Assembly: GCA_020629835.1 (NCBI GenBank)
Contig: JAHDCO010000006.1
Span: forward strand, 1-64,000
Origin: Granulosicoccaceae bacterium
Lineage (GTDB): Bacteria; Pseudomonadota; Gammaproteobacteria; Granulosicoccales; Granulosicoccaceae
Reading direction: 5' to 3'
DNA length: 64,000 nucleotides
The notes beneath the pieces were generated by a model. It saw only the letters and a list, made by a program, of their open reading frames with translations. It had not been told where the DNA came from and ran no database searches. A program made the translations under genes and the position numbers. Below, one piece after another: positions 30,230-42,407 of this stretch (the first letter of the stretch is position 1; the number at the start of each line of letters is the position of its first letter).

Positions 30230-31099
30230 CTACGCTAGATCTCGCATGCCTTTGGTCGGTGGTGGTACCCGACGCTCGCGGGGAATCGCGTCAAAGTCAA
30301 TGTATTCTTCACCGTTATACACCAGGAAATGGCGACCTTTGGCACGGGCGATAACGTTCATACCTACTTCTTTGGCAAGCTCTAACCCCATTTGAGTCAC
30401 GCCACTTCGTGACAACAATGTGGGTATGCCCATGAACGCTGTCTTCATGACGATTTCTGAGGTTAGGCGTCCGGTGGTATAAAAAATTTTGTCACTTCCG
30501 TCGATATGGTTTAACCACATACGGCCGGATATGGCATCCGCGGCGTTATGACGACCCACGTCTTCAATGTGCATGAGTGACGTCGTCTTCGTGCATAAAC
30601 CACAGCCATGTACCGCGCCGGAGACTCGGTATACCGCATTTAACTGGCTCACGTGTTTGATTAGCGCGTACAGCTCCGACTGTTTCAATTGGGTCGGTGT
30701 TAACTTCACCTCATACAGCTTGTCCACTGTGCAACTGAAGATCGTGCCCTGACCGCAACCGCTGGTTACGATGCGGCGCTTCATTTTTTCTTTCCAATCG
30801 GCTATGCCACGGCCGGCATGAGTCAACACATCAACCACTTCACGATCCCAATCGACTGTGACCGATGCAATGGCTTCGATATCTTCCATCAGTTTTTGGT
30901 TGCGGATGTAACCCAACGCCAAGGCTTCAGGTTCTGTACCCAGCGTCATTAACGTCACCACTTCCATGCCATCGACACGTAGCGTGAGTGGTAATTCGCC
31001 GGGAATATGTGCCGCAACGGCGTCACCGAATTCGTTAATCACCGTGACGTTGTGTGCGGGGTTCAGGCTTTCGTTGCTGAGTACAGGTGAGGTAAGCAC
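30230..31099 (-). CDS. fdhD: formate dehydrogenase accessory sulfurtransferase FdhD
   Basis: Delivers sulfur from the cysteine desulfurase to the molybdenum cofactor of formate dehydrogenase. The 289-residue protein contains EPEALALGYIRNQKLM, the catalytic cysteine loop VTSGCGQGT (C115), GAVHGCGLCT, and VGRHNAADAISG, all FdhD features. The CxxC loop of the E. coli protein is replaced by a single C-G-Q-G here, a version I believe occurs in other FdhD proteins. The GTG start at 31099 lacks a strong ribosome binding site. It is divergent from the DUF3305-DUF3306-ferredoxin genes and should share its control region with them. Confidence 0.93.
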   Translation of the reverse strand: MLTSPVLSNESLNPAHNVTVINEFGDAVAAHIPGELPLTLRVDGMEVVTLMTLGTEPEALALGYIRNQKLMEDIEAIASVTVDWDREVVDVLTHAGRGIADWKEKMKRRIVTSGCGQGTIFSCTVDKLYEVKLTPTQLKQSELYALIKHVSQLNAVYRVSGAVHGCGLCTKTTSLMHIEDVGRHNAADAISGRMWLNHIDGSDKIFYTTGRLTSEIVMKTAFMGIPTLLSRSGVTQMGLELAKEVGMNVIARAKGRHFLVYNGEEYIDFDAIPRERRVPPPTKGMRDLA

Positions 31100-31143
31100 G
31101 ATGACGACTAAGCCTTTGCGTTAAACAGAACACCGACTTTAAG

Positions 31144-31165
31144 AGTGAATTCTTGCGAAGTCACT
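31144..31165. promoter_or_regulatory. inverted repeat in the fdhD / DUF3305 divergent region
   Basis: AGTGAATTC and GAAGTCACT form 9-base arms with one mismatch around TTGC. The site lies 45 bases upstream of the fdhD start in the gap between the two divergent halves of the formate dehydrogenase locus. This is a natural place for an operator, perhaps for the HTH-PBP regulator. Binding is inferred. Confidence 0.5.
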
Positions 31166-31326
31166 ATCGTTGTTCAGTACCGCATTAAATTGATCGGGTA
31201 TTGTTGCGACTTTTTGTCTCACATTGGGACAACTTGTCACGATTCGTTGAGTCTGCTGTTCCTCTAAAACAAATCCAAATTCGTTTGGTTCTTCTTTGGC
31301 TAAGCGCTGCGTGCAATAGTACCCTC

Positions 31327-31866
31327 ATGAATGTTGAGGACATTGGCCAACGGGGGTTACCAGCACTCGACAAGCGCGTGGAATTCAGAGCCACAGTATT
31401 GCTTGAGAAACGGTTGGTAAAGCGTAAGTTCTGGCAATCGCACGCCTGGTACTTAGATACTGTGGCTTTGGGTGATGGTGTCAGTCAGCACGATGGTCAG
31501 GGTGAATTTGCTTATCAACGCCCAGGCGGTGATGTGTTTCGCTGGGACGGTTTACGAATCACTTTGTACAAAGATGCGTGCGAGCGTTACTGGCATGCGC
31601 TGATATCGGATAAACCGAAAATTTATGTGGTATGCCGAGATTCAGACGACGAATCTTCTGCACACGACGTGGCACCCTTGGTTGTAACCGCTGATTATGA
31701 TGAAGCGTTGGCGTTTGCAGAAACCGATGATCTAACACTCTCGGCACCCATTCCACCTCAGCTATATCGGTACATGGAGGACTTTGTTCTCACCCACTAC
31801 CGGCCTGTGCCCTTCAAAAAGCGCAAGCGCAAGAATTGGAGTGAGGACCACGGGAGGCGCGCGTGA
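31327..31866 (+). CDS. DUF3305 family protein of formate dehydrogenase loci
   Basis: A roughly 179-residue protein matching the DUF3305 family, which accompanies formate dehydrogenase genes in proteobacteria. KRVEFRATVLLEKRLVKRKFWQSHAWYLDTVAL and the C-terminal PPQLYRYMEDFVLTHYRPVPFKKRKRKNW are the recognisable parts. I start it at the ATG at 31327. The track's extra 42 residues overlap the control region and look non-coding. Its last four bases, GTGA, contain the start of the DUF3306 gene, so the two are translationally coupled. The function is not established. The gene order suggests a role in enzyme assembly. Confidence 0.8.
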   Translation: MNVEDIGQRGLPALDKRVEFRATVLLEKRLVKRKFWQSHAWYLDTVALGDGVSQHDGQGEFAYQRPGGDVFRWDGLRITLYKDACERYWHALISDKPKIYVVCRDSDDESSAHDVAPLVVTADYDEALAFAETDDLTLSAPIPPQLYRYMEDFVLTHYRPVPFKKRKRKNWSEDHGRRA

Positions 31867-32642
31867 GTGACGACAATCGCACGGGTTTTGCGCGCCGCTG
31901 GTCAGAGCGTAAAGCGGCGCAAAAGCAGCGTGTTCGTAGCGCGGCCGACACCACGCTTACCGATGAATTGGCTCATGATGAAGCTGGTGATGACGCTGCA
32001 ATTCAGGCTGATGCTGCAGCTACTTCATTCGTCTCTGTTAGCGATGCATCGGGTCAAACAGATCAATCTACTGAGATCGAAGATACCGCTGAGGATCAGG
32101 CAGCAGAACCGGTATTGACCGATGCGGATATGCCGGATATCGCCACGCTCAACGGCCAAAGCGACCTAAAAGACTTCTTCAATTCGGGCGTGTCTGCGGA
32201 GTTACGACGGGCGGCATTACGTCATGTGTTTTCGTTACCCGTTTACAACGTGCGTGATGGGTTGAACGACTACGACGACGATTACACGCGATTCGAACCA
32301 CTGGGTGACACCGTCACCTCTGACATGAAGTGGCATAAAGCACGAAAAGAGCGAGAAGCCGAAGAAGAGCGCTTGCGTCTTGCTAAAGAGCAGGAACAGT
32401 TAGACGAACAAGCACAGCTGGATGATCAGAAGCAGCTCGAAAATCAAGCCAATGATCAAGAACAGCCGAGTGAAGAGAACCCAGCCGATCAAGAGCACTT
32501 GCAAGAGCAAGAGCTAGATCAAGAGCAAGATCAGGAACTTGAGCAGCAGCGCCTGGCAGAAGGCGAGACCAACAACAGCAACGTTATTCCAGAATCCCTT
32601 TCATCTGACACGGCAAATCAAGCTGCCGAGACTACCGTATGA
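31863..32642 (+). CDS. DUF3306 family protein with Gln/Glu-rich tail
   Basis: A 259-residue protein. The DUF3306 pattern is seen in the N-terminal FARRWSERKAAQKQ and the middle block LPDIATL-like PDIATLNGQSDLKDFFNSGVS followed by RRAALRHVFSLPVYNVRDGLNDYDDDYT. The last 90 residues are a low-complexity Q/E/D/L run (EQEQLDEQAQLDDQKQ) that is probably helical and disordered and is much longer than in typical members. GTG start, overlapping DUF3305 by 4 bases, and its stop overlaps the ferredoxin start (ATGA). The molecular function is unknown. It is conserved next to formate dehydrogenase genes. Confidence 0.8.
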   Translation: MSDDNRTGFARRWSERKAAQKQRVRSAADTTLTDELAHDEAGDDAAIQADAAATSFVSVSDASGQTDQSTEIEDTAEDQAAEPVLTDADMPDIATLNGQSDLKDFFNSGVSAELRRAALRHVFSLPVYNVRDGLNDYDDDYTRFEPLGDTVTSDMKWHKARKEREAEEERLRLAKEQEQLDEQAQLDDQKQLENQANDQEQPSEENPADQEHLQEQELDQEQDQELEQQRLAEGETNNSNVIPESLSSDTANQAAETTV

Positions 32643-34294
32643 GCGAAACACAACAGCCTCTGGCTTTTCACGTTAATAGCGATGCCTGGACGGCTAAGCA
32701 GCAGCTACCTACCGAGACATCGCAAGTCAGTTACACCTGTGGTGGTCATGTGTTAGCGCTGTGTGACCGCCTGGATGATGTGTATCCGTATCTGGATCGC
32801 ATGCAGGAAAACGGCGTCACAGTGGTTGTACTCGATTCGGCTGTGGGCGGTATAGAGAAACAACTGCTGGACTCTGGAACGGCCGTTTTTACCGTACCTT
32901 CACTGGTGGTTACCGGGCACTTAGGGTCGTACTTCGCACACGCGGTGGACACGACGCGTGAATTGGATTTGGCTGTGTCCGTGTTTCGTGAAACCGGGGC
33001 GTTTGATCTTGTGTTGGATGTGAAAGCGTCACCCAGTATCGATGTGACATTAAAGCCTTTTGGCTATGTACACCGAACCGATGCCGATGACCTAGCGGGT
33101 GACATCGATGAGTTGCTTGCGTTAACCGGCGACTTCGATAAGCCCAAATACTTTGACTACAGCGCATCTGTGTGTGCGCACAGTCGTAGCCAGCTGTCCG
33201 GGTGCACACGCTGTATGGATGTGTGTACGACAGGCGCGATACAAACCGATGGCGAAGGGGTAAAAGTGGATCCGTATCTTTGCCAGGGCTGTGGTACCTG
33301 CGCCACGGTTTGCCCGAGCGGGGCGATGACTTACGCGTACCCACGCCCTAAAACCGCCATAAAGAAAAGTCGTGAATTGCTGGCCGAAGCTAACGCTAGC
33401 ACGGTGTTGCTATACAGCGAAAAGCATCAAGCGCAGATGGATGAGCTGCACTTGGAAGACGACGTATTCGGTTTGTTGGTGGAAGAGACAACAGCCTATG
33501 GGCTGGACTACTGGTTAAGTCTTTTGGCAGGGCATATTCAAAAAATTATTGTCCTAGTGTCTTGCGATGAGGTTGAACTGATCGCGCTACGTCAACAACA
33601 AGCGATTGCCCATGAGCTGCTGGCAGGGCTTGGTGTTACTGAATCGGTTGTGCATTTGTTGCCAGTAGAAGCACTGAGTCAGTGGCAATCGCTTCCAGTA
33701 CCTTCGCAGGTGTTGGCGACTGTGCCGGCGTCCAGTTACGACACGCATAACGATAAACGTCAAACGGTGCGCTTGGCGCTTGATGCACTCGCTGAGGCGC
33801 TGATGCCCACGTTGTCAGAACCGGTTAGCGAAACGCCATTACCGATAGGCGCGTCGTTTGGACGAATTGCCGTGAACCAGGATGCCTGCACCTTGTGTAT
33901 GGCGTGTGTGTCTACATGCCCAGCCAAAGCGCTGCAAGACGGGCAAGACACGCCGGCGTTGAAACTGATTGAAGCTAACTGCGTTCAGTGCGGACTATGC
34001 GAGCAAGCGTGCCCGGAGTCGGCCATCTCACTGCAGCCCCAGTATTTATGGGATTCGGTTTCGGCGAGAGAGGTCAAGACGCTGCATGAGGATTCACCGT
34101 TTCATTGCATCAGCTGTCATACGCCGTTTGCCACAAAAGGTGTGATCGCGAATATGGCCTCTCGTTTGGGCAGTCATTGGATGTTTCAGGATGATGCAGC
34201 GCTCCGACGGCTGAAGATGTGCGGGGATTGCCGAGTGAAAGATATTTTTCGTCAGGACGCGGCGGGCATCGAAACGCATCGCGAAGAACGATAG
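32639..34294 (+). CDS. 4Fe-4S polyferredoxin of the formate dehydrogenase locus
   Basis: A 551-residue iron-sulfur protein. At least four 4Fe-4S binding sets are visible: CTRCMDVCTTGAI, CQGCGTCATVCPSGA, CTLCMACVSTCPAKA and CVQCGLCEQACPESA. Two more cysteine pairs lie near the end (CISCHTPF, CGDCR). The N-terminal 160 residues lack cysteines except a few and may be a partner-binding domain. There is no signal peptide, so it is cytoplasmic. This family regularly accompanies DUF3305/DUF3306 and fdh genes and presumably moves electrons during assembly or turnover, but the reaction is not known to me. Confidence 0.88.
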   Translation: MSETQQPLAFHVNSDAWTAKQQLPTETSQVSYTCGGHVLALCDRLDDVYPYLDRMQENGVTVVVLDSAVGGIEKQLLDSGTAVFTVPSLVVTGHLGSYFAHAVDTTRELDLAVSVFRETGAFDLVLDVKASPSIDVTLKPFGYVHRTDADDLAGDIDELLALTGDFDKPKYFDYSASVCAHSRSQLSGCTRCMDVCTTGAIQTDGEGVKVDPYLCQGCGTCATVCPSGAMTYAYPRPKTAIKKSRELLAEANASTVLLYSEKHQAQMDELHLEDDVFGLLVEETTAYGLDYWLSLLAGHIQKIIVLVSCDEVELIALRQQQAIAHELLAGLGVTESVVHLLPVEALSQWQSLPVPSQVLATVPASSYDTHNDKRQTVRLALDALAEALMPTLSEPVSETPLPIGASFGRIAVNQDACTLCMACVSTCPAKALQDGQDTPALKLIEANCVQCGLCEQACPESAISLQPQYLWDSVSAREVKTLHEDSPFHCISCHTPFATKGVIANMASRLGSHWMFQDDAALRRLKMCGDCRVKDIFRQDAAGIETHREER

Positions 34295-34301
34295 GGACTA
34301 T

Positions 34302-34385
34302 GTGTCCACGGTTGGGAAGTTTTGCCCCGATTGTTACCAGCGCATGGACAAAAAGTCGCACCGAGGCTTGATGCGTGTTGTTTGA
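34302..34385 (+). CDS. candidate micro-ORF with CPDC motif
   Basis: A GTG-started frame of 27 residues lies 7 bases after the polyferredoxin stop, preceded by AGGGA: VSTVGKFCPDCYQRMDKKSH continuing RGLMRVV. It is below the track's cutoff. The basic sequence with one CxxC looks like a fragment of a zinc-ribbon protein and not random translation, but nothing else supports expression. It could be a decayed gene end. Confidence 0.3.
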   Translation: MSTVGKFCPDCYQRMDKKSHRGLMRVV

Positions 34386-34468
34386 GGTGAGCTGGCTAGG
34401 TGTTTAGTGGTTGTTATTGAGACTTTTCTGTCTTTTTTTAGGGTACAGCGGTTGCTGAAGAATAAATT

Positions 34469-35185
34469 ATGAGTTCAACATTAATGGATATAGACCGTCC
34501 CGAAGCGGGTGCGGCAGATGCGGCCGTAACCGATGCGCAAAAGAGAACGCATGTCGGTTCTACTGTCTCTGCAATTCCTGTGCAAAGTGATGTGGCGTTT
34601 CAACAGGATCAAGCGCAGCTTGCGCGCGTTGGCGTGTATCACTTGCTCTCTACGTTGTTTAGTCAAGAGCCGGATCACGAGGTGTTGCAACGCTTGTGCG
34701 ACATCGGTGACGTTGATACCAGCAACGGCAAAATTGCGATGGGCTGGGAACTCATGAAGCAAAGCGCTGCGAACACAAACGTGGAAGCGGTCCGGGATGA
34801 GTTTTTCTCGTTGTTTATTGGGGTGGGGCGTGGCGAACTCATGCCGTTTGGATCGTGGTACCTCACCGGGTTTTTAATGGAAAAACCGGTGGCGGTGCTT
34901 CGACGTGACTTACAGATGCTGGGCATAGAACGTCAAGAGGGCGTGGCTGAGTCCGAAGATCACATCGCTGGTTTGTGCGACGCCATGGCGTTAATGATTC
35001 AGCACAGCGATGAGATTGACTTGGCCACTCAGGCCCAGTTTTTTAAAGATCACATCGAGCCATGGGCAGGTCGATTTTTTGAAGACTTGCAATCGGCATC
35101 GAACGCAAACTTTTATCGCACGGTCGGATTTTTCGGTGCCGCGTTTATTGAATTTGAATCGGATTTACTGGCTCGCACCAGTTGA
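34469..35185 (+). CDS. TorD/DmsD family molecular chaperone
   Basis: A 238-residue, mostly helical cytoplasmic chaperone of the TorD family. Such proteins bind the Tat signal of a molybdo-enzyme subunit and hold it until the cofactor is inserted. ARVGVYHLLSTLFSQEP, EFFSLFIGVGRGELMPFGSWYLTGFLMEKP and SEDHIAGLCDAMALMI are family blocks. The first 45 residues are extra, polar, and possibly disordered. An internal start near 34580 cannot be excluded. The obvious client is the Tat-exported FdhA encoded 300 bases downstream. It precedes the small Tat peptide gene by 53 bases. Confidence 0.88.
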   Translation: MSSTLMDIDRPEAGAADAAVTDAQKRTHVGSTVSAIPVQSDVAFQQDQAQLARVGVYHLLSTLFSQEPDHEVLQRLCDIGDVDTSNGKIAMGWELMKQSAANTNVEAVRDEFFSLFIGVGRGELMPFGSWYLTGFLMEKPVAVLRRDLQMLGIERQEGVAESEDHIAGLCDAMALMIQHSDEIDLATQAQFFKDHIEPWAGRFFEDLQSASNANFYRTVGFFGAAFIEFESDLLARTS

Positions 35186-35489: not shown

Positions 35490-38396
35490 ATGAAACTGAC
35501 ACGTAAATCGGATTCAAGCGTCAATGGCGTTAGCCGACCATCTGCGGGTGTTAAAGCCGCCAGCTTGCTCGGTACATCAGTCAATCGACGATCGTTTCTG
35601 AAAAATTCAGGCTTAACGGCCGGTGGTGCGGCATTGGCTGTCGGTGCCGGCCCGTCCATGCTGAAAAAAGCGCGCGCTGCGACCACGTATGCGAAAGAGG
35701 GGGTTGCCACCACTCGCGTTAATTCCATTTGCACGCACTGCTCCGTAGGTTGCGGTGTGGTTGCTGAAGTACAAAACGGCGTATGGACTGGGCAAGAGCC
35801 AGATTATGATTCACCGATTAACTTAGGCGCGCATTGTGCCAAGGGCGCTTCGGTTCGCGAGCATGGCCACGGCGATCGTCGTTTGCGTTATCCCATGAAG
35901 TTGGTGGGTGGCAAATGGCAGAAAGTGTCGTGGGATACCGCCATCAACGAAATCGGTGATCAGATGCTGAAAATTCGTGAAGAGTCCAGCCCGGATTCTG
36001 TGTACTGGTTAGGCTCGGCCAAGCACAACAACGAACAAGCGTATTTGTTCCGCAAATTTGCAGCGCTGTGGGGCACAAACAATGTGGATCACCAAGCGCG
36101 AATTTGTCACTCCACCACGGTAGCCGGTGTTGCTAACACCTGGGGCTACGGTGCCATGACAAATTCATACAACGATATGCATAACTCGAAAGCGATGTTC
36201 TTCATCGGTTCTAACGCCGCCGAAGCTCATCCCGTAGCCATGCAACATATCCTAAAGGCGAAGGAAAACGGGTCTAAGTTAATCGTGGTAGACCCACGAT
36301 TTACACGTACTGCAGCGCACGCGGATCAATTTATTCAAATGCGCCCGGGAACAGACGTACCTGTCATCTGGGGAATCATGTGGCATATCTTTGAAAACGG
36401 TTGGGAAGATCAGGAGTACATCGACCAACGCGTTTACGGCATGGATGATGTGCGTGCAGAAGTTGCTAAGTGGAACCCAGCCGAAACTGAACGCGTTACG
36501 GGTATTCCGGAAGCCACATTAAAACTCGCTGCACAAACCATGGCAGAGAATCGTCCCGGCACCATCGTATGGTGCATGGGCGGCACGCAACACACCATCG
36601 GTAATAACAACACGCGCGCCTATTGTGCGTTGCAACTTGCCTTAGGCAACGTGGGTGTGTCCGGTGGCGGTGCCAATATCTTCCGTGGTCACGATAACGT
36701 GCAGGGCGCAACAGACTTCGGCGTTCTGTCTCATACCTTGCCCGGTTACTACGGTTTATCGGCTGGTTCGTGGAAGCATTGGTCAAAAGTGTGGGACTTA
36801 GACTTTGAATGGGTTCAGGGTCGTTTTGATTCGGCGTCTTATGAGAAGAAAGGCGATAAAGATATCCCCACCATGCACACGGCCGGTATGCCGGTTTCAC
36901 GCTGGATTGATGGTGTATTAGAAGATCCTGACAACATTGCGCAGAAAGACAACATCCGCGCCATGGTGTTATGGGGGCACGCCCCGAACTCACAAACCCG
37001 TGGGCCGGAAATGAAAGCGGCGATGGAAAAGCTGGAACTTTTGGTGGTTATCGATCCGTACCCAACGCATACCGCGGTATTGCCCGACCGGCAGGAAGGC
37101 ATGTACCTGTTACCGGCGGCTACTCAGTTTGAAACCTATGGTTCGGTCACCGCGTCAAACCGTTCACTGCAGTGGCGTAACAAAATCATTGAACCGTTGT
37201 TTGAGTCGCTACCCGATCACACCATCATGTACAAGATGGCGGCAAAACTTGGGTTTGGCGATGAGTTAACCAAGAACATCGCAGTTAACAACGATGAACC
37301 ACTGATTGAAGACATCACGCGTGAATTCAATAGTGGTATGTGGACAATTGGCTACACCGGACAAAGCCCTGAACGTATCCAGGAGCACATGAAACACCGT
37401 GCCACGTTTGATAGCACCACATTGCAAGCGAAGGGTGGTCCGCTGGATGGTGAATACTTTGGGATGCCTTGGCCGTGTTGGGGCACCGCGGACATGAAAC
37501 ACCCGGGCACGCCAAACTTGTACGACACCAGTAAGCGTGTGAGTGAAGGCGGCTTAAACTTCAGAGCTCGTTTCGGTGTAGAACGCGATGGCGTAAACCT
37601 CCTGGCTGAAGATAGTTGGTCGGTGGATGCTGAGATTGAAGACGGTTATCCGGAATTTACTGCGGACATGCTGAAGCAGTTAGGTTGGTGGAACGACTTA
37701 ACCGACGCTGAGAAGCAGGCGGCTGAAGGTAAGAACTGGAAAACGGATTTATCGGGCGGTATTCAGCGAGTGGCTATTGCGCACGAGTGTGCACCGTTTG
37801 GTAACGCTAAAGCTCGAGTAAACGTTTGGACTTTCCCAGATCCTGTGCCAGTGCACCGTGAACCGCTGTATGCACCGGATCGAGAATTGGTGGCTAAGTA
37901 CCCCACTTACGAAGATCGTAAGTCTCACTATCGTTTGCCTACCCGTTATGGGTCTATCCAGGCGGTAGATTACTCCAAAGACTTCCCGCTGATTCATACC
38001 AGTGGTCGCTTGGTGGAATACGAAGGCGGCGGTGATGAGACGCGCTCTAATCCGTGGCTTGCAGAATTACAGCAAGACATGTTTGTGGAAATTAATCCAG
38101 CGGATGCGAATGACCTGGGTATTAAAGATGATGAGATGGTGTGGCTTGAGGGCCCTGAAGGCGGCAAGATCCACATCAAAGCCATGGTCACTGAACGCGT
38201 AGCACGCGGCGTCGTCTTTACACCGTTCCACTTTGGTGGTCACTACCAAGGTGAAGACTTGCACGATAAGTACCCAGAAGGTGCAGCGCCTTATGTTCGC
38301 GGTGAAAGTAACAACACCGCCATGACGTATGGCTACGATTCAGTCACTCAGATGCAAGAGACGAAAACGTCTTTATGCAAAATCTACTCAGCGTAA
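35490..38396 (+). CDS. fdhA: formate dehydrogenase alpha (catalytic) subunit, Cys type
   Basis: A 968-residue molybdenum or tungsten bis-MGD enzyme that oxidises formate to CO2 in the periplasm. A Tat signal with RRSFLK at residues 33-38 marks export. A 4Fe-4S cluster is bound by C81, C84, C88 and C116 (CTHCSVGCG...GAHC). The catalytic residue is C206 in ARICHSTTV, encoded by TGT, so this is a cysteine enzyme and not a selenocysteine one. NNEQAYLFRKFAALWGTNN and GMWCMGG-like WCMGGTQHT are cofactor-binding blocks. It is followed within 12 bases by the iron-sulfur subunit gene. Confidence 0.96.
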   Translation: MKLTRKSDSSVNGVSRPSAGVKAASLLGTSVNRRSFLKNSGLTAGGAALAVGAGPSMLKKARAATTYAKEGVATTRVNSICTHCSVGCGVVAEVQNGVWTGQEPDYDSPINLGAHCAKGASVREHGHGDRRLRYPMKLVGGKWQKVSWDTAINEIGDQMLKIREESSPDSVYWLGSAKHNNEQAYLFRKFAALWGTNNVDHQARICHSTTVAGVANTWGYGAMTNSYNDMHNSKAMFFIGSNAAEAHPVAMQHILKAKENGSKLIVVDPRFTRTAAHADQFIQMRPGTDVPVIWGIMWHIFENGWEDQEYIDQRVYGMDDVRAEVAKWNPAETERVTGIPEATLKLAAQTMAENRPGTIVWCMGGTQHTIGNNNTRAYCALQLALGNVGVSGGGANIFRGHDNVQGATDFGVLSHTLPGYYGLSAGSWKHWSKVWDLDFEWVQGRFDSASYEKKGDKDIPTMHTAGMPVSRWIDGVLEDPDNIAQKDNIRAMVLWGHAPNSQTRGPEMKAAMEKLELLVVIDPYPTHTAVLPDRQEGMYLLPAATQFETYGSVTASNRSLQWRNKIIEPLFESLPDHTIMYKMAAKLGFGDELTKNIAVNNDEPLIEDITREFNSGMWTIGYTGQSPERIQEHMKHRATFDSTTLQAKGGPLDGEYFGMPWPCWGTADMKHPGTPNLYDTSKRVSEGGLNFRARFGVERDGVNLLAEDSWSVDAEIEDGYPEFTADMLKQLGWWNDLTDAEKQAAEGKNWKTDLSGGIQRVAIAHECAPFGNAKARVNVWTFPDPVPVHREPLYAPDRELVAKYPTYEDRKSHYRLPTRYGSIQAVDYSKDFPLIHTSGRLVEYEGGGDETRSNPWLAELQQDMFVEINPADANDLGIKDDEMVWLEGPEGGKIHIKAMVTERVARGVVFTPFHFGGHYQGEDLHDKYPEGAAPYVRGESNNTAMTYGYDSVTQMQETKTSLCKIYSA

Positions 38397-38408
38397 GGGA
38401 GAATAATC

Positions 38409-39002
38409 ATGGCTAGAATGAAGTTTCTATGTGATGCCGAGCGCTGCATTGAGTGCAACGGGTGTGTCACCGCGTGTAAGAACGAGCATGAAGTGCCTTG
38501 GGGTGTTAACCGACGTCGAGTGGTCACACTGGATGATGGTCTGCCTGGAGAGAAATCGATCTCGGTGGCGTGCATGCACTGTACTGACGCTCCATGCCAG
38601 GCGGTATGTCCGGTTGATTGCTTTTCAACCACATCAGACGGCATCGTGTTACACGATAAAGATCTGTGTATTGGTTGCGGCTATTGTTTCTACGCGTGCC
38701 CGTTTGGTGCACCGCAGTACCCGCAACAAACCTCGTTTGGCGCACGCGGCAAGATGGATAAATGTACGTTCTGTGCGGGCGGTCCAGATGAAAGTGCCAA
38801 CCTAACCGATGCAGAGTACGAGCAATACGGCCGTAACCGAATTGCAGAAGGGCGTATGCCGTTGTGTGCAGAAATGTGCGCAACTAAAGCGCTGGTGGCT
38901 GGTGACGGTGATCAGATCGCTGACATCTACCGTGAGCGCGTCTTGCGTCGTGGCGGGCGCCCACAAACCTGGGGCTGGGAGACAGCCTACACCGAGGGGT
39001 AA
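38409..39002 (+). CDS. fdhB: formate dehydrogenase beta subunit (4 x 4Fe-4S)
   Basis: A 197-residue electron-transfer subunit carrying electrons from FdhA to the membrane cytochrome. Four cysteine sets are visible: CIECNGCVTAC, CMHCTDAPCQAVC, CIGCGYCFYAC, and CTFC with a later CAEMC. It has no signal peptide, so it is presumably exported as a complex with FdhA. It lacks the C-terminal membrane helix of E. coli FdnH, which places it in the shorter Fdh3-like group. The gene lies 6 bases before the cytochrome subunit gene. Confidence 0.94.
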   Translation: MARMKFLCDAERCIECNGCVTACKNEHEVPWGVNRRRVVTLDDGLPGEKSISVACMHCTDAPCQAVCPVDCFSTTSDGIVLHDKDLCIGCGYCFYACPFGAPQYPQQTSFGARGKMDKCTFCAGGPDESANLTDAEYEQYGRNRIAEGRMPLCAEMCATKALVAGDGDQIADIYRERVLRRGGRPQTWGWETAYTEG

Positions 39003-39008
39003 TCGCTA

Positions 39009-40172
39009 ATGGACAAGCAAATCCCTCAACTCGATGCTCAAACCATAAAAGCGGTGGTGGACGAGCACAACGCAAAAGTTAGCAAGCGACGTCGTCGACA
39101 TCGAATTGTGTTCTGGAGTTTATTCACCATTCTGGGTTTGGCGATCGCCTTACCCATGGTGAGTTACACGAGCCATTGGATGGGGGCTAATGCAGTGGCT
39201 CAGGAAGCGGCGGCCTCAGCGAACCCGCGTTCCAACTACTGGCGTGCGGTGAAAGAAGGTGTGGCTGGTTATTCGGCTGTGAGTGGGCCTGAATCGGGTG
39301 TGCTCATCCAAATGAACGGTACAGGATGGCAACAGTTGCGTGATGGTCCCATCGCGCAGAAACTGCCTTGGGCTATCGCAGGTTCAGCTGTGTTACTGCT
39401 GTTATTTCATTTGATCTTTGGTAAGAGCAAGTTAACCCACAGTAAATCGGGGCGTAAGATTAAACGGTGGAGTTGGCTTGATCGCCTTGTGCACTGGGTA
39501 ACTGCCATATCGTTTATCGCGTTAGCGATTACCGGGCTCAGTATGCTCATTGGTAAAACGCTTTTGATTCCCGTACTGGGAAAAGCCGGGTTTGCAGCAT
39601 GGGCGCAGGTATCCATGCAAGCGCACAACGTGCTGGGACCTGTGTTCAGCGTCGGTATCGTCTCTATGATTGTGTTGTGGGTCTGGTACAACTTCCCCAG
39701 CAAAGTGGATATGGCGTGGTTAAAAGCTGGTGGTGGTATGTTCAACAAGAACAAACACCCATCTGCTGGACGCATGAACGCTGGTGAAAAGATCTGGTTC
39801 TGGCTACTGGCTACCTTGGGTGTCGTCGTGTGCTTAACAGGCATAGCGATGGTTGCGCCAATTTATGGCATTGCCATTCCCGATTGGGCACAAAACCTTC
39901 CGTGGCTGGCAGGGACTCGAGCGGACATGCAACAAGCCAATCTCATCCATGCCGGTTTGGGCATCGTCTGGACCGCGATTGCCCTGGGTCATATCTATAT
40001 CGGCACAGCCGGTACAGAAGGGGCATTCGAGGGTATGGCTTCAGGTTACGTTTCTGAAGAGTGGGCGTTACAGCATCACGATTTGTGGGCAGAGAAGATG
40101 ATCGCCAACGGTAAAGTGATTGAAGCCGGCAGTGGCTCAACAGCGGCTGCGGGAACAACGGCTGCAACTTAA
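39009..40172 (+). CDS. fdhC: formate dehydrogenase gamma subunit, cytochrome b
   Basis: A 387-residue membrane cytochrome b that passes electrons to the quinone pool. The N-terminus has one helix (IVFWSLFTILGLAIALPMV), followed by a 90-residue periplasmic part. Then come four core helices: AIAGSAVLLLLFHLIF, LDRLVHWVTAISFIALAITGLSM, NVLGPVFSVGIVSMIVLWVW and LVHAGLG-like LIHAGLGIVWTAIALGHIYIG. Histidines in HWVTA, AHNVLG and LIHAGLG are candidates for heme ligation. The C-terminal Ala/Thr/Gly tail is low-complexity. This is the last gene of the fdh operon, and a terminator hairpin follows. Confidence 0.93.
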   Translation: MDKQIPQLDAQTIKAVVDEHNAKVSKRRRRHRIVFWSLFTILGLAIALPMVSYTSHWMGANAVAQEAAASANPRSNYWRAVKEGVAGYSAVSGPESGVLIQMNGTGWQQLRDGPIAQKLPWAIAGSAVLLLLFHLIFGKSKLTHSKSGRKIKRWSWLDRLVHWVTAISFIALAITGLSMLIGKTLLIPVLGKAGFAAWAQVSMQAHNVLGPVFSVGIVSMIVLWVWYNFPSKVDMAWLKAGGGMFNKNKHPSAGRMNAGEKIWFWLLATLGVVVCLTGIAMVAPIYGIAIPDWAQNLPWLAGTRADMQQANLIHAGLGIVWTAIALGHIYIGTAGTEGAFEGMASGYVSEEWALQHHDLWAEKMIANGKVIEAGSGSTAAAGTTAAT

Positions 40173-40818: not shown

Positions 40819-41715
40819 ATGATGCAACCGTTGGTTCGGTGGTGTTTAGTCAGGTGGCATCTTGGCTATTGGGGCCCCTTCCAGTGGTGCCCCGTCCGTT
40901 GGAGTAAGAGCCGCAGCGCTGCGTTCTTTATGCTGCTCTTTGTTGGTGTTCATGCATCGAGCGTTTCTGCCGATACCGCTCAAACTGCGAAGCAGCGGTG
41001 GATTACCGCCATCAATCAAGACGATGCTGTCACGCTGATGAGTTTATTAAATCAGCGTGTGGTAGACGATGCGTGGAAGGTTACCGCATCAAATGGCAAA
41101 ACAGCATTAATGGTGGCCGCTAAAGTGGGTCATCGAGACCTGGCAGCGCGCCTGGTGACTGAAGGTTCGAGCATTCATCGAAAAACGATAACGGCTGGTA
41201 CGGCATTTATGTTCGCCATCCTGGGTGATCAATTGCCAATGGCTCAATGGTTAGCTTCCCGAGGGGCCAATGTGAATGCGCAAGGTTCCAATGGTTGGAC
41301 ATCGGTCATGATCGCGTCAGCGAAAGGTTTAGACAGTACCTTAGCTTGGTTACTGGAGCAGGGGGCGGATTCCAGCACGACGGACGTGTATGGATTTTCA
41401 CCGTTAATGCGAGCGGTTGATAACGGGCACATAGACGCTGTACGGTTACTACTTAGCGATACACGCGTACAGATTAACTGGCAGGATGAGCTTGGGAATA
41501 CGGCATTACACTATGCTGTGTCTAATGCGTCCGCGATAAGTGTGGCGCTGTTGATCGATGCGGGTGCGTCTGTGCATATCGATAATTGGGCCGGTACATC
41601 GCCGTTAGCGCTAGCAAGAGAAATCGCTGACAAGGGGCGCGATCAGTTACGTTCAGATGACCCACAGGTGGCTGCGTTACAGGCCATATTGGCAAAATTC
41701 AAAGTAGTTCAGTAA
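40819..41715 (+). CDS. exported ankyrin repeat protein
   Basis: A 298-residue protein with about five ankyrin repeats between residues 90 and 285, for example GKTALMVAAKVGHRDLAARLV, GWTSVMIASAKGLDSTLAWLL and GFSPLMRAVDNGHIDAVRLLL. The signal-like segment SAAFFMLLFVGVHASSVSADT before them suggests export. The 30 residues ahead of that are rich in Trp and Arg in a repeating RW pattern and may not be translated, so the true start may be further in. Ankyrin domains mediate protein contacts. In bacterial periplasm they occur with catalase or other partners. The partner here is unknown. Confidence 0.75.
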   Translation: MMQPLVRWCLVRWHLGYWGPFQWCPVRWSKSRSAAFFMLLFVGVHASSVSADTAQTAKQRWITAINQDDAVTLMSLLNQRVVDDAWKVTASNGKTALMVAAKVGHRDLAARLVTEGSSIHRKTITAGTAFMFAILGDQLPMAQWLASRGANVNAQGSNGWTSVMIASAKGLDSTLAWLLEQGADSSTTDVYGFSPLMRAVDNGHIDAVRLLLSDTRVQINWQDELGNTALHYAVSNASAISVALLIDAGASVHIDNWAGTSPLALAREIADKGRDQLRSDDPQVAALQAILAKFKVVQ

Positions 41716-41723
41716 TTGAGGGT

Positions 41724-42407
41724 TTAACACAGTACTTGTTGTGCGGAGAAGTCTTTAGCCAGAACAACCTTCGTTGTATTACCCACACGAGCGCGTACAT
41801 CGCTGGTGCCATATTCCATAGCAAGACGGAATCCGAAGGCTTGTAAAAACCGCTCGTACTGATCCGGGCCATGACTGCCGGTTGCGAATAGCGCACCGTT
41901 CTCGTCTGGCTCTAACGCAATTGCCGCCAGCGGTACCGGTGCAGGGCCACTAAGCACTTGGCCGCCTTTGGCCGGATGGTAAACACTACGCTCAGAACAG
42001 CAGCTAATAACGCCACGCTGCGTTTGTTTTTGGCGCTGCTTATCGTAGAACGTGACTGGCTTATCCTGATAAGAGATGTGGCTAATAGGCCGTGCAGGGT
42101 GAGACATTTTGTGGCTGCAGATCGCTGAGAAGGCCACCACGCTCTGATCATGATCCACACCCCCAGGCCACGATCCTTGATGCGGAGCGGATTCGTGTAA
42201 GCGCACCAGAAAACAGGGTGTGGTTTTATACGGGTAGCTGAATATCCAGGCTTCACCAGGATTCAACTGCGCTAGCGTAACCGGTGAATCATCTTCAAAT
42301 ACCAGCGCACTCCTCGGAGTGGGGGTGATATCGGTTGCATTGACGTGTAACGAGGATGCTCCTGCAACCAAACCTGTGCACAGTCGATTGAATTGCCGTC
42401 GATCCAT
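41724..42407 (-). CDS. Rieske-type iron-sulfur protein with an altered ligand motif
   Basis: A 227-residue protein with a Tat-like start (MDRRQFNRLC) and the Rieske layout. The first ligand pair is present as C97-S-H99 in AFSAICSHKMSHP. The second pair, normally C-x-x-H, reads C137-S-E-R140 in SCCSERSVYHP, so the usual histidine is an arginine and a histidine appears four residues later (H144). GGQVLSGPAPVPLAAI after it is standard Rieske. If the cluster forms, one ligand must be unusual. Alternatively the protein has lost its cluster. The gene is divergent from the EamA gene and convergent with the ankyrin gene. Confidence 0.75.
   Translation of the reverse strand: MDRRQFNRLCTGLVAGASSLHVNATDITPTPRSALVFEDDSPVTLAQLNPGEAWIFSYPYKTTPCFLVRLHESAPHQGSWPGGVDHDQSVVAFSAICSHKMSHPARPISHISYQDKPVTFYDKQRQKQTQRGVISCCSERSVYHPAKGGQVLSGPAPVPLAAIALEPDENGALFATGSHGPDQYERFLQAFGFRLAMEYGTSDVRARVGNTTKVVLAKDFSAQQVLC

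Follow-up and report, generated by a model that had tools for sequence, protein, structure and literature searches.

The window, a stretch of 64,000 nucleotides, carries a formate dehydrogenase (FDH) locus with a Rieske-fold protein encoded at its far end. Accessory genes for FDH occupy positions 30230 to 35185, with fdhD on the minus strand and genes for a DUF3305 protein, a DUF3306 protein, a multi-4Fe-4S protein and a TorD/NarJ-type chaperone on the plus strand. They are followed by fdhA, fdhB and fdhC (35490-40172, plus strand; NCBIfam TIGR01591, NF038355 and TIGR01583), which encode, respectively, a catalytic subunit with a Tat-like N-terminus, a ferredoxin subunit and a cytochrome b subunit. 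FdhA scores 480.5 bits as a formate dehydrogenase as against 89.3 bits as AioA (cut-off 359.05). Between fdhC and an ankyrin gene lies the gene for C2 (40264-40818, plus strand), a conserved protein of 184 amino acids that matches no Pfam or NCBIfam family above its cut-off. The ankyrin-repeat protein (40819-41715, plus strand; Pfam Ank) is the usual neighbour of the Rieske gene, which closes the series in convergent orientation (41724-42407, minus strand).

The open frame at 41724-42407 is a genuine gene. Its product, a protein of 227 amino acids, contains AICSHKMSHP and GVISCCSERSVYHPAKGGQVLSGPAPVPL, and the motif pair reads ICSHKMSHP / ISCCSERSVYHPAKGGQVLSGPAPVPL in translation. The N-terminal region (residues 1-25, MDRRQF...; 42333-42407, minus strand) looks like a Tat signal, in line with the original prediction: it bears a twin-arginine pair, and R3, R4 and F6 are invariant in alignment A1. 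The same region contains a cysteine, C10 (42378-42380, minus strand), that 53 of the 54 family members share. By Pfam the relationship to Rieske proteins is remote: PF00355 scores 13.0 bits where 20.3 are needed. NCBIfam matches the protein to the Rieske subunit of arsenite oxidase and to SoxL2, in both cases below the cut-off. The top relatives in a sequence search of the PDB were SoxF and AioB, hhalign aligned the family profile with an AioB-type profile at 99.8% probability, and the AlphaFold model, which contains no cofactor (pLDDT 81), has AioB chains as its top Foldseek neighbours (E about 1e-7, TMt 0.75-0.82). On the strength of these PDB relatives, the profile alignment and the structural neighbours we assign the product to the Rieske fold.

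In the Cys-x-x-His loop of Rieske proteins the first cysteine and the histidine are ligands, and the middle cysteine of CPCH is a disulfide partner. Sequence and profile alignments place CCSERSVY over CPCHGSIY of SoxF and CPCHFSVF of AioB-type proteins, a register in which C136 takes the ligand-cysteine position, E139 the ligand-histidine position and R140 that of the glycine in CHGS. Because CCSERSVY overlies the CPCH loops, C136 and the glutamate at position 139 represent the ligand pair of the second loop (C136-C137-S138-E139; 41991-42002, minus strand), which thus departs from Cys-x-x-His. The first loop, C97-S98-H99 (42111-42119, minus strand), is a complete Cys-x-His motif, and by alignment and conservation the four ligand positions hold two cysteines, one histidine and one glutamate (C97, C136, H99 and E139). 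The earlier claim that one of the four ligand positions has lost its histidine is borne out by this alignment, but the residue then named, R140 (41988-41990, minus strand), was off by one, the count having begun at C137. Between H99 and C136 the spacing is 36 residues, inside the range of 15-47 residues that separates the loops of Rieske and Rieske-type proteins (PMC11138216). The cysteines that form the loop disulfide of bc1/b6f Rieske proteins are missing, as is general in Rieske-type proteins, and the residues that align with them, 102 and 138, are serines; Rieske-type proteins do not need this disulfide (PMC11138216).

Conservation was assessed in 54 distinct family members. Position 139 is glutamate in 49 of them, histidine in four and aspartate in one, so that a carboxylate is found in 50 of the 54. 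C97, H99, C136, C137, S141 and C227 do not vary in any member, which upholds the predicted integrity of the first C-S-H pair, and the residue beside the ligand position, 140, varies (R 37, K 6, H 5, G 3, Q 1, N 1, A 1). The glutamate forms share a mean pairwise identity of 52%, the lowest being 30%, and E139 has thus been held across considerable divergence; most other acidic columns of the family alignment vary far more. Three fixed ligands with a carboxylate at the fourth position look like a retained metal site and not like decay. C137 (41997-41999, minus strand) and C227, at the very C-terminus (41727-41729, minus strand), are invariant cysteines in glutamate and histidine forms alike, and they possibly form a new disulfide that replaces the classical one.

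When genome contigs were scanned, 31 relatives of full length emerged (L002-L032), 30 of them from Granulosicoccus or Granulosicoccaceae and one from Chromatiales, and whole-genome searches found members across many families of the class together with one in another class. The protein is present in 43 of the 48 genomes of the order. Among relatives the Rieske gene adjoins the ankyrin gene, C2 and fdhABC, on one strand in six loci (L008, L009, L014 and L016-L018) and convergently in the others, and the same layout recurs with gaps in further families of the class (L118-L126). Most glutamate forms either adjoin fdhABC and the ankyrin gene or stand behind the glycolate oxidase genes glcDEF, the latter in one genus of Granulosicoccaceae (L024, L025, L027-L029, L031 and L032) that includes genomes without FDH. 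One branch (L005, L007, L010-L013, L019-L022 and others) has a further gene between the Rieske and ankyrin genes, for a protein of roughly 780 amino acids which from its sequence appears to be cyclic-nucleotide-binding and patatin-like. Across the order, FDH and the Rieske protein occur together in 39 genomes, the Rieske protein alone in four, FDH alone in one and neither in four (Fisher p = 0.0017, a value that is not corrected for shared ancestry). The single genome with FDH alone (G770) was considered as a case of FDH lacking the Rieske protein and set aside as uninformative, since its contig stops about 2.4 kb beyond fdhA. The four genomes that keep the Rieske protein without FDH, along with the glcDEF-linked genus, indicate that FDH is not the sole possible partner of the Rieske protein and not an absolute requirement for it.

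The four members with histidine at position 139 (L047, L048, L050 and L067) have a different neighbour. In each case a flavoprotein gene stands immediately upstream of the Rieske gene (loci L128, L129, L131 and L133); the flavoprotein of L131 carries a Tat signal and the domains of flavocytochrome-c sulfide dehydrogenase (PF21706 and PF09242), and its identity to the other three is 61-71%. No histidine form adjoins FDH, and no glutamate form examined adjoins such a flavoprotein. The histidine-form protein stands as if it had replaced the usual cytochrome c partner of the sulfide-dehydrogenase-like flavoprotein. The histidine forms make up one clade (support 100/98), nested among the glutamate forms in the best tree, and being a single clade they provide one evolutionary correlation with the flavoprotein and not four. 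Searches around two of the histidine-form genomes gave no additional histidine forms. Because the root of the best tree falls on the long branch leading to the outgroup, and because the AU test does not reject a tree with all carboxylate forms in one clade (p = 0.27), a single change from histidine to glutamate and a later return to histidine are both possible. Two members (L049 and L066, with the loops CCADHS and CCAEHS, one of them having aspartate at the ligand position) adjoin neither FDH nor the flavoprotein. It is conceivable, if doubtful, that the family differs at one ligand according to partner, with histidine for the flavoprotein and glutamate for FDH, and that the Cys2-His-Glu set re-tunes reduction potential and proton coupling.

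By fold, the nearest solved structures are those of AioB, the Rieske subunit of arsenite oxidase (TIGR02694; PDB 1g8k and 4aay). The two share a profile alignment along most of the chain, a Tat-like N-terminus and an FxYPxxxxPC segment. Unlike AioB, which has Cys-x-x-His, the glutamate family has Cys-x-x-Glu, as well as a long insert between the loops and a C-terminal extension ending in cysteine; moreover, AioB is partnered by AioA, whereas the gene described here neighbours FDH (FdhA) and no AioA, and its product scores 45.7 bits against TIGR02694, below the cut-off of 95.65. SoxF of the Sulfolobales, the best sequence match in the PDB, has CPCHGS with the histidine in place. SoxL2, also of the Sulfolobales, is the best NCBIfam match, yet the score against TIGR03171 is 48.6 bits where the cut-off is 582.1. 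NirD-type proteins (PF13806) resemble the glutamate family in being Rieske folds that depart from the canonical ligand set. One of them, a protein of the same bacterial family with a strong PF13806 match (sequence L139), has neither C-x-H nor C-x-x-H, in contrast to the three ligands and carboxylate kept by the glutamate family; the remaining PF13806 members examined retain both ligand motifs.

A Rieske-fold family with glutamate at the fourth ligand position suggests a natural iron-sulfur site. We tentatively favour, at close to even confidence, a model in which the protein is exported by the Tat system to the periplasm, carries electrons on a [2Fe-2S] cluster held by Cys2-His-Glu and probably exchanges them next to FdhABC. 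According to this model, C97 and C136 would hold one iron and H99 and E139 the other, the carboxylate of E139 replacing the histidine of the second loop and so taking away one of two ionisable imidazoles. The reduction potential should then be lower than in Cys2-His2 Rieske centres, a change that would match a donor of low potential such as formate dehydrogenase, and with one histidine instead of two the coupling to protons should be reduced. The carrier would probably exchange electrons beside the periplasmic formate dehydrogenase, where C2 and the ankyrin protein may serve as partners for assembly or docking.

There is chemical precedent for such a site. The Rrf2 family regulator RsrR naturally carries [2Fe-2S] on two cysteines, one histidine and one glutamate, the same ligand set as proposed here and described as perhaps the first such site to combine three types of side chain, but RsrR is a DNA-binding regulator of unrelated fold that draws its ligands from two subunits (PMC11138216). 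In the Rieske ferredoxin of Sulfolobus, replacement of the second-loop histidine by cysteine (H64C) still allows a low-potential cluster to assemble, whereas the corresponding change in the first loop (H44C) prevents assembly (PMC2946596). H64C alters the same histidine position with retention of the cluster, although it is engineered and introduces cysteine, not glutamate. The natural change to E139 falls at the tolerant of these two positions, and the counterpart of the intolerant one, H99, is invariant. One consideration counts against a carrier role: FdhC should already hand electrons to quinone, which leaves the need for a Rieske carrier unclear.

The original prediction had held that either the cluster site is altered or the cluster has been lost, which proves to be the right framing. 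The strongest of the alternatives, which we nevertheless regard as unlikely, is that the protein binds no [2Fe-2S] cluster but a single iron or zinc ion, or no metal, and serves the exported dehydrogenase structurally or in its assembly. The full set of Cys-x-His and Cys-x-x-His is indeed absent, Rieske folds without a cluster exist (the NirD-type protein above), the engineered Sulfolobus scaffold can accept a mononuclear iron site (PMC2946596), and having an ankyrin gene and genes for FDH accessory proteins as neighbours would fit an assembly factor. Against this reading, three ligands and a carboxylate are strictly retained, and the histidine-bearing members of the same family keep the classical ligand set. 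A related consideration is that E139 could be conserved for a role in the second coordination sphere rather than for ligation.

Less probable again is a [2Fe-2S] cluster whose fourth ligand is not E139 but water or another conserved residue, namely C137, C227 or H103. A Rieske fold can carry a cluster with three cysteines and one histidine (PMC2946596), the two cysteines are invariant and H103 is kept in 49 of the 54 members. The remaining five have tyrosine at position 103, however, and C137 and C227 are just as invariant in the histidine-bearing members, from which it follows that neither arose as a replacement for the lost histidine. The notion that the two cysteines compensate for that loss is not supported, on the same ground.

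That R140 stands in place of the ligand histidine and H144 (codon CAT; 41976-41978, minus strand) takes over its function, as originally put forward, we consider very improbable. Histidine at 144 occurs solely in the protein of the window, its codon being one base from GAT, and the other 53 members have aspartate there, which rules out H144 as a conserved substitute ligand; alignment of relatives, the check proposed at the time, finds neither residue conserved, and the register speaks against this reading as well. Homologues with histidine at 140 had been named as the sign of a strain-specific change or sequencing error. Such homologues do exist, five among the 54, but all five keep a carboxylate at 139 (glutamate, in one case aspartate; loops CCSEHS, CCAEHS and CCADHS), which leaves the unusual site standing, and glutamate at 139 in 49 distinct members shows that the change is not confined to one strain. 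Sequencing or assembly error, or decay of the gene in this genome, has a negligible chance of explaining the loop: the assembly is fragmented (149 contigs) and H144 is a one-base singleton, but the glutamate loop is common to dozens of separate assemblies, which contradicts an error at E139, and the reading frame is unbroken, conserved residues running up to the last codon.

Rieske centres are defined by a Cys2-His2 ligand set. In the open-access papers searched, a body that leaves most subscription journals uncovered, we found no natural family of Rieske-fold proteins described as having a carboxylate at a ligand position, nor any report, within the same coverage, of a case that combines a Rieske protein, an ankyrin protein and formate dehydrogenase. 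Since the protein scores under the Pfam cut-off, annotation can miss members of this kind. A conserved variant that differs at one ligand and has histidine-bearing sisters would make it possible to test cleanly how reduction potential and proton coupling in this fold depend on one ligand. As judged from gene order and sequence, the glutamate-family Rieske protein may be an overlooked exported component of formate dehydrogenase loci of a common type.
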